Assembly: GCA_028820655.1 (NCBI GenBank)
Contig: JAPPIK010000011.1
Span: forward strand, 21,732-85,731
Length of the DNA stretch: 64,000 nt
Direction: 5' to 3'
Source: Candidatus Poribacteria bacterium
Lineage (GTDB): Bacteria > Poribacteria > WGA-4E > JAJDTR01
The position numbers and the translations under genes were made by a program. A model generated the notes under the pieces. The model was not told where the DNA came from, searched no databases, and was given only the letters and a program-made list of their open reading frames with translations. Below are positions 10,428 through 14,790 of the stretch, one piece after another; position 1 is the stretch's first letter; each line of letters opens with the position of its first letter.

Positions 10428-11228
10428 TCATGTCCCGGCTTCCTCTCCAATCTCGTCTTTAACCTGAAAATTCCCACGCACCACCGGCTGTTCAACCAAC
10501 AGAGCACCTTCCCGAGTTCGCGTCCCGGTCGGCATGTAGTGAATTATCATCGCTCTACGCTCTCGCGTCGATGTGTTCGGATTCGATTGGTGAAGCATCA
10601 AACAGTGATGCACCATCGCGTACCCCGCTTTGACCGGCACCGCCACGGCGCGTTCGGTATCCACCTTAGCCGTCAAAAGAGCCGGCAACTTACCCTTATC
10701 CGTCATTGCCCGTTCATGTTTCGCGCCCCCCTCGCGGTGGCTGCCCGGAATCACGTTCATGCAGCCGTTCTCTTCATCGGCGTCGTCGAGCGCCATCCAG
10801 ATGCTTACCAGATTCGGAGGGACGCAACCCCAGTAGCCGTTGTCCTGATGCCAGTGTACCGCACCGCCGTGATTCGCAGGCTTGTAGAGGGCTTGGTCGA
10901 AGAAAACTTGGATATTGGGTCCGATGAGACTCTCGGCGATGTCAAGCAAAGGCGAGTGATACAGCAACTCCCGAAAGGCCTCGTCTCGCTGCCACATCTG
11001 TTGTATCTGAAGCATTACCTCGGAGTGGTCGGCATCCGGATCATCGGCGGACTCGCCAATCGCGGCGATGTTGCGCATCCCCTCACCGAATGTTCCGTGT
11101 TTCTGCGCGAACACTGCATCGTAATGTTCTCGCAGGGTTGCCAAGTGATCATCATCCAAAACGCGGTGGCCAATCTTGAGATAGCCTTCTCGCTGGAACT
11201 GTTCGACAGCCTGTTCTGTTAACTTCAC
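10428..11228 (-). CDS. Phytanoyl-CoA dioxygenase (PhyH) family protein
   Basis: A member of the Fe(II)/2-oxoglutarate-dependent PhyH superfamily, 266 residues. The facial triad is intact: HxD in VHWHQDNGYWG (about 118-128) and a distal histidine in MVHHCLMLHQSNPN (about 206-219), followed by the 2-oxoglutarate-binding arginine in TSTRERRA. It starts with GTG at 11228, whose first base is the last base of the trpC stop (TAGTG), so it is probably coupled to trpC. The substrate is unknown. Enzymes of this superfamily hydroxylate many small molecules, so a link to tryptophan metabolism is only a possibility raised by the context. Confidence 0.92.
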   Translation of the reverse strand: MKLTEQAVEQFQREGYLKIGHRVLDDDHLATLREHYDAVFAQKHGTFGEGMRNIAAIGESADDPDADHSEVMLQIQQMWQRDEAFRELLYHSPLLDIAESLIGPNIQVFFDQALYKPANHGGAVHWHQDNGYWGCVPPNLVSIWMALDDADEENGCMNVIPGSHREGGAKHERAMTDKGKLPALLTAKVDTERAVAVPVKAGYAMVHHCLMLHQSNPNTSTRERRAMIIHYMPTGTRTREGALLVEQPVVRGNFQVKDEIGEEAGT

Positions 11229-12013
11229 TAAGCCCCTTTCATTCCGAGTAACTCTCGAACCTTCGCCCCGATGTCAGCGCTCCTCACCAGCGACTCACCC
11301 ACGAGGATTGCGTCCATGTCCGCTTCGCCGAGTCTGATCACGTCTTCGCGAGTGTAAATGCCACTCTCGCTTACGACGATTTTATCGTCGGGGATTGATT
11401 TCCGCAGGTGGAAGGATGTGGCAGTGTCGGTGTGGAAGGTTTTCAGGTCTCGGTTGTTGATGCCGATGATTTCCGCTTCAGCGTCAAGCGCAATGTCCAA
11501 TTCCGAATGAGTGTGCACTTCGACTAAAGCGGCGAGATTCAGATGCTTTGCAACTCCGATGAACTCCCGCAATTGCTCCGGCGACAGGATTGCAACGATG
11601 AGCAGAACGGCATCCGCCCCCGAAACACGCGCTTGATAGATGTGGTATTCGTTGGTCGTGAAATCTTTCCGCAGCAACGGCAATTCGACAGCGTTGCGAA
11701 TCGTGGTCAGGTAGGAAAGATCGCCGCCGAAGAACTCGTGGTCGGTGAGGACCGAAATTGCAGAGGCGCCGTTTTCCGCGTAGGTTTTGGCAATCTTGAT
11801 GGGATCAAAATCCTCGCGGATTATCCCCTTGCTTGGCGATTTCCTCTTTACCTCGGCAATGAGGTTGACGGCGCCCGGCGTCGCCAATGCGGCTCTGAAG
11901 TCCCGTGTAGGCGGCAAATCGGGGATTTCACTTTTCAGCGTTTGGAACGGTGTTTTTTCTTTGTCCCGCTTGAGTTCTTCCCGTTTGTGCGCAACGATCG
12001 TATCTAGGATCAA
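11228..12013 (-). CDS. trpC: Indole-3-glycerol phosphate synthase
   Basis: Closes the indole ring in tryptophan synthesis, converting CdRP to indole-3-glycerol phosphate. The TIM-barrel signature is clear: LIAEVKRKSPSKG (catalytic Lys), VLTDHEFFGG, LLRKDF, ALVEVHT, IGINNRDLKTF and VSESGI. I chose the TTG at 12013, which gives the family-typical N-terminus MILDTIVAHKREEL and about 261 residues. The frame stays open only a few codons upstream, through a GGAGG that would serve as the ribosome site, though the gap to TTG is long. It is separated from trpD by the two-gene DUF262/HEPN cassette and overlaps the PhyH gene by one base. Confidence 0.95.
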   Translation of the reverse strand: MILDTIVAHKREELKRDKEKTPFQTLKSEIPDLPPTRDFRAALATPGAVNLIAEVKRKSPSKGIIREDFDPIKIAKTYAENGASAISVLTDHEFFGGDLSYLTTIRNAVELPLLRKDFTTNEYHIYQARVSGADAVLLIVAILSPEQLREFIGVAKHLNLAALVEVHTHSELDIALDAEAEIIGINNRDLKTFHTDTATSFHLRKSIPDDKIVVSESGIYTREDVIRLGEADMDAILVGESLVRSADIGAKVRELLGMKGA

Positions 12014-12037
12014 TGGTTTTTCAAACCTCCACAAACA

Positions 12038-12682
12038 TCACTCACAGAGGAGTTCAACAATAGCTTCAATGTCATCAATCCAGTCAAGTATCAGAATCTG
12101 TGGGCGCTCATAAGCTGGCGTCAAAAGGATTTCAGATGGATGGCTGCGTAGGGAAATGGAATAACTTCGCGCGATTTGTTTGGCCTTCACCGCTGTATCG
12201 TCATTTCGATGCGCGTAGAAATTTCGAAATGTCGACAAGTGATCAAAAACCTCGGTTTGGCCCGACAAAGCTTCTCGAATTTCGGTACGATTGGAACAGC
12301 AAATCTCTTCGCAACTCTTGATAAGAGTCTCGGGATTATGCCATGCTGGTTCATCACGTCGTTTCAAACTTCCCTGCTGTGGTATCCAAGGCTTGCATTT
12401 TCTTACTGCCGCATTGATCGCATCATCAAACGTGTGAATAGCCGAATTGTTTAACGTAATCTGTAAACCTTTTTCCCGCCATGGGGACAGAGTACAAGAT
12501 AGAAAATAAGCGCGTGCAAAATTCGCCCATGCGTTTAGACATTGAATCGTTATAAAAGAAGCTATCCGGTCAGAGTCTGGCCAAGGCAGACCACTTACTT
12601 CATGTGCCAAATTATTCAACTTTTTTAGATGGCGTTCGTTTGTCTTATGACGGAGACGGCTTAGGTACTTTGATGGGCGCAT
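12038..12682 (-). CDS. HEPN-type RNase-like protein paired with DUF262
   Basis: A 214-residue protein resembling the MAE_28990/MAE_18760-like HEPN nucleases often found beside DUF262 genes. The diagnostic HEPN motif Rx4-6H is visible as R153-N-F-Y-A-H158 in TFRNFYAHRND, including the polar residue after Arg typical of active HEPN RNases. The rest is predicted mostly helical. Its ATG overlaps the stop of the DUF262 gene by one base (TAATG), so the two are co-translated. HEPN domains in this setting usually act as RNA-cleaving effectors of defence or toxin-antitoxin systems; that role is inference here. The base composition is AT-richer than the flanking trp genes. Confidence 0.72.
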   Translation of the reverse strand: MRPSKYLSRLRHKTNERHLKKLNNLAHEVSGLPWPDSDRIASFITIQCLNAWANFARAYFLSCTLSPWREKGLQITLNNSAIHTFDDAINAAVRKCKPWIPQQGSLKRRDEPAWHNPETLIKSCEEICCSNRTEIREALSGQTEVFDHLSTFRNFYAHRNDDTAVKAKQIARSYSISLRSHPSEILLTPAYERPQILILDWIDDIEAIVELLCE

Positions 12683-13734
12683 TACAGTAGCTTCGGCTCT
12701 AATGCTTTACAAAACCATTTGAACCGTTGTTCTCGTTTTTCTTTATAATGTGTATAACTAGAGGTAGCCGAAACGAATTCTTTGAACTTTCCGCCGGTGT
12801 CTTCCGGGTTTTCTAATACTTGAGCCAATAAAGTTAGGTTTGCAATGGAAACATCTGAGTCGTAATTAAAATGAGTTTGCGGATATAAAGGCAGAAAATC
12901 CTTTACCGGATTCTTCATGTGAATAATTGCAAGAACCAAGGTATAAAAATTGTAAGGTCGCATTAATGGGCCTTTGTGTATATCGGTTATATTAAGAATA
13001 AAGTCGATCGCATATTCAAGCTTTCTTGCAATCTCCCCTATTTCATGAAACTCGTTTTCGAGACTTTCATAGAGTTTGTCAAGCATTTTTGCATTAGTTC
13101 GAGTTATCCCGTTCAACAGAGCATGGATTATCTCCGAGTATAGCTTTGTATCTGCCATTCTGGTGAGTTGTTTTTCGCCGAGAACACCGAGGTCAAGTAG
13201 ATTCTGGTCATAAGTTCTTGACAATTTATGAATAAACCACTTAAATTCCCCTTGATAAACAGAATGGCGTTTCTCCTCTGGATTGAGTGGAACCGTATAA
13301 GCGTTAATCCTTCGAAACACTTCGCGTATGTCGAATACGGTTGCGGACACTAGAAGATCCACTGACAAGGAATAATCTAGGAAAGCCTGCTGAAATTCTT
13401 TATCTAGTTCGGTACATTGTTTTCCCGCCACTTCAGCAATTTCGCTTGATCGAGACAAACGAAACTTATCCTCGAAAAATTCTAAAATTGCTTGGCTTCT
13501 TTGTTGACCATCTACTATTTCCTTGTAAGTCTTTCGGCTCCTGAGATCGGTCTTCTGAAATAGAGAAAGTTTCGGAATCGGGTAGTTGAGCAAAATCGTC
13601 TCAATGAGGAACGACTTTGCAGCAGGTGGCCAAACTTTGTCACTTCTTTGATAGTTTCGATTCACAATGATTTCCCTATTGATCATGGCTTGGCAATAAT
13701 CCGCAACAGTATAGTTTGTTGAGGTAATATGCAT
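12682..13734 (-). CDS. DUF262 (GmrS-like ParB-fold NTPase) protein
   Basis: A 350-residue protein with the DUF262 fold. Key motifs are YQR (about 28-30), the nucleotide-binding DGQQR (75-79) and FRRINAYTVPLNPEEKRH. DUF262 occurs in GmrSD type IV restriction and in several other defence systems. The HNH-type DUF1524 nuclease that follows it in GmrSD is absent; a HEPN protein is encoded instead by the next gene. The start is the ATG at 13734, with GGGAGG 7 bases upstream; an earlier in-frame ATG overlaps this ribosome site. It begins 27 bases after trpD and looks AT-rich, suggesting recent insertion into the trp operon. Confidence 0.85.
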   Translation of the reverse strand: MHITSTNYTVADYCQAMINREIIVNRNYQRSDKVWPPAAKSFLIETILLNYPIPKLSLFQKTDLRSRKTYKEIVDGQQRSQAILEFFEDKFRLSRSSEIAEVAGKQCTELDKEFQQAFLDYSLSVDLLVSATVFDIREVFRRINAYTVPLNPEEKRHSVYQGEFKWFIHKLSRTYDQNLLDLGVLGEKQLTRMADTKLYSEIIHALLNGITRTNAKMLDKLYESLENEFHEIGEIARKLEYAIDFILNITDIHKGPLMRPYNFYTLVLAIIHMKNPVKDFLPLYPQTHFNYDSDVSIANLTLLAQVLENPEDTGGKFKEFVSATSSYTHYKEKREQRFKWFCKALEPKLL

Positions 13735-13761
13735 TCTCAAGCCTCCCTTCATATCTCGGAA

Positions 13762-14772
13762 TTATGCATTCGACTTTGCTTTGAGCCCTTCCAACTTCTC
13801 TAACGCCTTCCCGGAATCAATGGACCCGTTAGCTAGGGTCAATCCCTCTTCCAAACTTCCCACCTTTCCGCCGGCAACAATCGCCGCCGCCGCATTGAGC
13901 ACTACAATGTCTCGCTTTGGTCCCTCTTCACCATTAAGAAGCCGCACGACGGTTTCGGCATTCTCCTCCGGTGTCCCACTGGTGAGGTCGTCAGGCTGAG
14001 CCTTCGGAATCCCTAGTTCGGTCGGGTCGAGTGTATAGGTCTTCACATCCCCATCGACCAACTCCGAGACCCGTGTCGTCGTCGTTGTTGTAATCTCGTC
14101 CAATCCATCGTCTCCGTGTACAACAAAGGCATGCGTACTCCCGAAACTCTTGAGCGCGTTCGCATGCGTTTCCGTGAGTTCCGGCGCGTAGACTCCAAGC
14201 ACTTGAGCGCCGGCGCCCGCCGGGTTGGTCAAAGGAGCGACCGTATTGAAAATAGTGCGGAGTGCAATTTCCCGACGCGGTCCAATGGCATATTTCATCG
14301 CACCGTGGAGCAGCGGCGCGAAAAGGAATCCGATGCCGATTTCATCAATGCACCGACCGACGTGTTCGGGTGTAATTTCGACGTTCACACCGAGCGCCAT
14401 CAGCACATTCGCACTTCCACTCGCGCGGGTCACTCCTCGGTTGCCGTGCTTCGCGACCGGAACCCCCGATCCCGCAACGACGAAGGCGGAAGTGGTTGAG
14501 ATATTGAACGAGTCCAAACGTGTACCGCCTGTACTACAGGTGTCAACGACCAAAGCGTGTTTTGTTTTGACCGGCGTCGCCTTCGACCGCATGACGCGAG
14601 CAGCCCCGGTGATCTCTTCCAGCGTTTCACCTTTTATTCGAAGTGCGGTGATGAGACTGGCAATTTGGGCATCCGTTGCTTCGCCCGACATAATCTCGTT
14701 CATGGTATCAGTCATTACAGTTTCGGTTAAATTATGTCCATCAACCACTTTTTGGATTGCTTCGCGAATCAT
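13762..14772 (-). CDS. trpD: Anthranilate phosphoribosyltransferase
   Basis: Transfers phosphoribose from PRPP to anthranilate in tryptophan synthesis. Conserved segments include DTCSTGGTRLDSFNIST (about 78-94), the PRPP-binding KHGNRGVTRASGSAN (about 107-121) and HGDDGLDE. The true start is the ATG at 14772, preceded by GTGAGGAGG with an 8-base gap. The longer frame begins at the GTG inside this ribosome site. It gives 336 residues, the normal family length. It is the first gene of the minus-strand group trpD, DUF262, HEPN, trpC, PhyH. The other trp genes are not in this window. Confidence 0.96.
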   Translation of the reverse strand: MIREAIQKVVDGHNLTETVMTDTMNEIMSGEATDAQIASLITALRIKGETLEEITGAARVMRSKATPVKTKHALVVDTCSTGGTRLDSFNISTTSAFVVAGSGVPVAKHGNRGVTRASGSANVLMALGVNVEITPEHVGRCIDEIGIGFLFAPLLHGAMKYAIGPRREIALRTIFNTVAPLTNPAGAGAQVLGVYAPELTETHANALKSFGSTHAFVVHGDDGLDEITTTTTTRVSELVDGDVKTYTLDPTELGIPKAQPDDLTSGTPEENAETVVRLLNGEEGPKRDIVVLNAAAAIVAGGKVGSLEEGLTLANGSIDSGKALEKLEGLKAKSNA

Positions 14773-14790
14773 TCCGTAATTCCTCCTCAC

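Follow-up and report, generated by a model that had tools for sequence, protein, structure and literature searches.

The stretch of DNA analysed here, referred to as the window, covers 64,000 nucleotides (nt) from a Candidatus Poribacteria bacterium (assembly GCA_028820655.1, contig JAPPIK010000011.1, positions 21,732 to 85,731) and carries a two-gene cassette within its genes for tryptophan biosynthesis. On the minus strand the locus reads trpD, a gene for a 350-amino acid DUF262 (GmrSD_N) protein (12682..13734), a gene for a 214-amino acid HEPN-like protein predicted to be a ribonuclease (RNase; 12038..12682), trpC and a gene for a PhyH-domain protein. The two cassette genes have one base in common, at 12682, and the DUF262 gene starts 27 nt after the trpD stop codon. 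We place this start at the ATG at 13734, which a GGGAGG ribosome site precedes by 7 nt (ribosome-binding-site region AAGGGAGGCTTGAGA, 13735..13749, minus strand); the mechanically called open reading frame begins at 13752. A first-pass annotation of this DNA had described the same layout, and its coordinates, one-base overlap, 27-base gap and trp neighbours agree with the open reading frames and Pfam assignments.

The DUF262 protein was identified through Pfam (GmrSD_N, E 6.6e-15) and PADLOC, where the best model was NsnA (E 1.1e-32), with PD-T4-2_A also matching (E 1.7e-14). It consists of a ParB/Srx-like NTPase domain, spanning residues ~1-165, followed by an all-helical C-terminal half that contains no nuclease domain, and neither cassette protein gave a Pfam match to DUF1524 or an HNH nuclease, the absence of which had been remarked on earlier. 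The AlphaFold2 model has a predicted local distance difference test (pLDDT) score of 88.7, and its best Foldseek matches are the GmrSD-family enzyme BrxU and ParB in complex with cytidine diphosphate (both with probability 1.00, E ~0.002). The previously noted motifs YQR, DGQQR and FRRIN are fully or almost fully conserved in 12 homologues, with DGQQR strictly invariant.

The second protein contains the motif R153-N-F-Y-A-H158. Across 11 members of its family, with identity falling to 15-17%, R57, E111, R153, A157, H158 and P182 are invariant and N154 is kept in ten. The AlphaFold2 model is all-helical (pLDDT 92.6, predicted template modelling score 0.89) and has the motif where a long helix ends. 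Using hhalign, the family profile matched the HEPN-like partners of other DUF262 proteins from Rhizobium and Glutamicibacter plasmids with a probability of 92-93% (P 4e-7), against P values of 0.15-0.41 for reversed controls. The best Pfam scores, both sub-threshold, were to HEPN_Apea (E 0.08, 13.8 bits against a cut-off of 24.4) and HEPN_Cthe2314 (E 0.25). These features make it probable that the 214-amino acid protein is a HEPN protein. The PADLOC PD-T4-2_B, Pfam and PHROG models all miss it, and neither a search of PDB sequences with its profile nor tblastn against plasmids returned a match. No Pfam match to an MNT nucleotidyltransferase antitoxin was found at the cassette, where the partner of the HEPN-like protein is DUF262.

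Comparison by BLASTN with a genome of the same genus (L005) revealed that 1741 bp of the window (12023..13763) stand in place of a 17-bp trpD-trpC spacer, with flanks that are 86% and 85% identical and nothing aligned between them. The insert has a guanine-plus-cytosine (GC) content of 41.3%, compared with a window mean of 51.2% (standard deviation 3.3%) and 53-55% in the flanking genes, which places it in the lowest 0.3% of equal-sized stretches. Both the insertion and the AT-richness claimed in the first-pass annotation are thus borne out. In every other relative whose available sequence covers both genes, trpD and trpC are adjacent, and a HEPN profile search found the protein in one of 85 genomes of the phylum. 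Because of this restriction to a single genome we conclude from the sequence comparison that the cassette is a recent, clean acquisition and no component of the trp operon; a pair matched in base composition and conserved in trp operons throughout the phylum, which would have spoken for an ordinary metabolic component, is not what we observe. We found no transposase or recombinase in the insert and no clear terminal inverted repeats. A weak 14-nt near-repeat, GGTAATATGCATTC / GGAATTATGCATTC, with copies 35 bp apart (13723-13771), spans the left insert junction across the end of trpD and the start of the DUF262 gene, and is possibly a trace of the insertion event.

Both host genes are intact on the minus strand. 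Upstream, trpD (13762..14790) encodes anthranilate phosphoribosyltransferase (Pfam Glycos_trans_3N/Glycos_transf_3, E 5.6e-86; 88% identity to L005), and downstream, trpC (11228..12034) encodes indole-3-glycerol-phosphate synthase (Pfam IGPS, E 9.5e-88). The true start of trpC is probably the TTG at 12013, as L005 lacks any in-frame start before this point. No terminator was found on the minus strand between trpD and trpC, and co-transcription of the pair with the trp genes in the source genome is plausible. A search for leader RNA families found none.

Eleven further complete pairs were identified (L001, L002, L029, L039-L045 and Escherichia phage vB_EcoM-689R6), all with DUF262 first and HEPN second and with spacing that ranges from a 35-nt overlap to a 16-nt gap. 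Two of the pairs come from metagenome-assembled genomes, one of Aminicenantes (62% and 61% identity to the two window proteins) and one of Chloroflexi (55% and 49%). In IMG/VR, relatives of the DUF262 protein (29-48% identity) occur on nine contigs; one of these (L046) stops at the DUF262 stop codon, and on all eight with downstream DNA (L029, L039-L045) the next gene encodes a protein of 213-222 amino acids with an RN/RH-x-x-AH motif. Portal genes lie beside two pairs, of Mu type at L039 and of P22 type at L044, serine recombinases adjoin those at L029 and L041, and the latter is also next to an S24/helix-turn-helix repressor. An N6/N4 DNA methyltransferase gene sits directly upstream of DUF262 in L039 and L040, and another lies near the L029 pair on the other strand. 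Among the GenBank phages, vB_EcoM-689R6 carries the pair between its integrase and icd, and the same cargo was found between intE and icd in prophages of 9 of 5426 complete E. coli genomes at 99.9-100% identity; the query region matched ~519 E. coli genomes, in most of which a related intE that lacks the pair accounts for the match. The pairwise distances among the DUF262 proteins correlate strongly with those among their HEPN partners (r = 0.92 over 11 pairs, a value reached in 0 of 10,000 permutations), and mean identity is 38% for DUF262 and 25% for HEPN. These comparisons show the two genes to be a conserved, co-evolving and mobile unit, carried mostly on phages and prophages with its motifs intact.

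Three side observations concern individual copies. The E. coli pair at L063:6001-7712 (NZ_CP195459.1 3053219-3054930) is annotated only as a DUF262 domain-containing protein and a hypothetical protein. The two proteins of the E. coli prophage pair are WP_001095712.1 and WP_021519677.1. Of the nine E. coli copies, one (L106:2562-3213, strain S1-JOR-02-A) has an intact DUF262 gene and a one-base frameshift in its HEPN gene, within a stretch of A residues that precedes the motif; this may be a real loss or a sequencing error. Downstream of the Aminicenantes pair (L001:2407-4620) is a gene for a 737-amino acid protein which, judged by eye, seems to combine a CHAT-type protease domain with a formylglycine-generating-enzyme-like domain.

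Other DUF262 proteins have related partners. Within the window's own phylum, Pfam-confirmed HEPN_RiboL-PSP genes adjoin GmrSD_N genes in L087 (G019:C229) and L086 (G021:C430); these HEPN proteins carry a PTWAD/PSWAD motif that resembles the EPTWGD of the window family. On plasmids of Glutamicibacter and Rhizobium (L024:2977-4675, L026:2950-4676) a DUF262 gene is followed by a gene of a second HEPN-like family with the motif RNxxAH. The adjacency of DUF262 and HEPN-type genes arose more than once. On three further plasmids, two from Asticcacaulis and one from Pseudanabaena, the gene for a short DUF262 protein shares bases with one whose product is annotated as a protein kinase (L025:2998-5140, L028:2986-5230, L035:2489-4635). 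This arrangement suggests a putative two-gene DUF262-kinase module, and the L025 copy matches PADLOC mad6 and PD-T4-6.

With moderate confidence we interpret the cassette as an anti-phage module gained by horizontal transfer, whose HEPN RNase is controlled by an NTP-binding DUF262 sensor. The DUF262 protein, as a ParB/GmrS-like nucleotide-binding sensor, would keep the HEPN protein inactive until a trigger from the phage causes a conformational change coupled to NTP binding or hydrolysis; the likeliest trigger is the DNA of the phage, perhaps its modification state. This switch would turn on the RNase, which would cut RNA and so stop the growth of the phage, probably together with arrest of the cell. 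The position within the trp genes would be an accident of insertion, one that may supply a promoter. A defence-like role had been proposed in the first-pass annotation, and the matches to NsnA and PD-T4-2_A and the carriage on phages and prophages support it. The methyltransferase genes upstream of DUF262 in L039 and L040 give a hint that the trigger is the modification status of DNA. More tentatively, and here we are doubtful, the pairs may make up a widespread phage- and prophage-borne family of two genes, sometimes three with a DNA methyltransferase, in which a DUF262 NTPase that senses DNA modification gates an RNA-cutting HEPN protein; this would be the logic of type IV restriction with an RNase replacing the DNA nuclease, in a family absent from current effector models.

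Several observations count against a sensor-gated HEPN defence module. All curated Pfam HEPN models score below their cut-offs for the window protein and for the members scanned, and Foldseek with the predicted model returned no significant PDB or viral match, HEPN entries appearing only at E >2. The earlier HEPN call, whose motif is invariant, is probable and short of proof. PADLOC recognises only the DUF262 half. The family profile matches the Pfam-confirmed HEPN_RiboL-PSP groups only marginally (P 0.02-0.05); those groups match one another only at P 0.002-0.02. The HEPN assignment is drawn from motif conservation, the profile match to the DUF262-linked HEPN-like family and sub-threshold Pfam scores, an anti-phage role is a prediction for every member of the family, and no defence genes flank the cassette in the window.

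The same arrangement could also be a toxin-antitoxin or addiction module, in which the DUF262 protein would be the antitoxin of the HEPN RNase and the pair would persist by stabilising prophages or plasmids, with no specific sensing of phage. Two tightly coupled genes with the HEPN RNase second recall the HEPN/MNT modules, and the frameshifted HEPN gene beside an intact DUF262 gene in E. coli, if not a sequencing error, is what would be expected of a costly effector. However, DUF262 proteins of known function (GmrSD, BrxU, SspE and GrwAB) are the sensor or NTPase parts of restriction systems (PMC10952713, PMC12137116), a methyltransferase sometimes joins the operon, and the better conservation of the first gene is, to us, more sensor-like than small-antitoxin-like. 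We consider an addiction module unlikely.

It is also rather improbable that the second protein is no RNase and serves as a helical partner with a structural or DNA-binding role, and that DUF262 is itself a nuclease or nucleotide-degrading ParB/Srx enzyme. The lack of a significant fold match to solved HEPN structures would fit such a role, and ParB/Srx proteins with nuclease or NTPase activity have been cited (PMC10853773), but R153, A157 and H158 are invariant across a family so divergent, and the other DUF262 proteins described above pair independently with HEPN-type proteins (L024 and L026; HEPN_RiboL-PSP in G019 and G021). That the pair has become one of the metabolic or regulatory components of the trp operon and responds to tryptophan or translation state is scarcely credible: the shared strand, the intact flanking genes and the lack of a terminator, which make a single transcript likely, would agree with it, but the pair occurs in only one of the 85 genomes of the phylum searched, has no homologue elsewhere in a trp operon and is foreign in composition, and no leader RNA family was found. 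A trp-regulated system was rejected on this last point and on the restriction of the insert to this genome. All other members lie outside trp operons, in phage structural regions, next to integrase and icd or beside recombinases, and the tie to amino-acid or translation status suggested in the first-pass annotation is not supported.

It seems that short DUF262 proteins serve as a sensor module which combines with varied partners, HEPN here and kinase-, AAA- and helicase-type neighbours in the plasmid relatives. The joining to HEPN has held stable across phyla and phages, with a HEPN half that PADLOC, PHROGs and Pfam overlook. The E. coli prophage copy makes the way in which a DUF262 domain switches an RNase testable in laboratory strains.

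Among experimentally tested systems the closest is PD-T4-2 (Vassallo et al. 2022), which is listed as DUF262 plus HEPN (PMC10952713) and protects E. coli from T4 (PMC9519451). Like PD-T4-2, the window pair has two genes, DUF262 and HEPN, without DUF1524, and its DUF262 protein matches PD-T4-2_A. Unlike PD-T4-2, its DUF262 protein scores better to NsnA, and neither its HEPN partner nor those of nine further members match PD-T4-2_B at E<=1; the source genome as a whole gave no PD-T4-2_B match at E<=0.1. NsnA we take, from PADLOC naming, to be the DUF262 gene of Menshen. The window protein shares this best model with Menshen, but around its gene lie trpD, the HEPN-like gene and trpC, and no OLD-type nuclease partner is adjacent. 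With GmrSD, BrxU and SspE the pair shares a ParB/Srx-type DUF262 domain with QR, DGQQR and FxxxN motifs, the best fold match being BrxU, and differs in having a separate HEPN-like protein as effector in place of a DUF1524/HNH nuclease. In SspE the DUF262 domain hydrolyses NTPs on recognising a DNA mark, which switches on the nuclease (PMC10952713). The window pair lacks the defining partner feature of PD-T4-2, Menshen and GmrSD alike, and membership of each was rejected.

No published function for the window's DUF262-HEPN family was found in the literature, and a survey from 2025 that covers the 20 most common GmrSD clusters of enterobacteria reports no type with DUF262 and HEPN (PMC12373910). 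Operons of ParB and HEPN genes, some with a DNA methylase, were described in 2013 for the MAE_28990 and Ribo L-PSP HEPN families (Anantharaman et al. 2013, PMC3710099). The pairs described here resemble them in the adjacency of a HEPN gene and a gene of the ParB superfamily, joined in L039 and L040 by a DNA methylase gene, and differ in that all members of the window family fall below the thresholds of the MAE_28990 and Ribo L-PSP HEPN Pfam models. The first-pass annotation had treated the combination as unusual. Since PD-T4-2 and the ParB-HEPN operons were already known, the DUF262 and HEPN kind is therefore known too, and the new part is the window's HEPN subfamily, which is a new variant of it.
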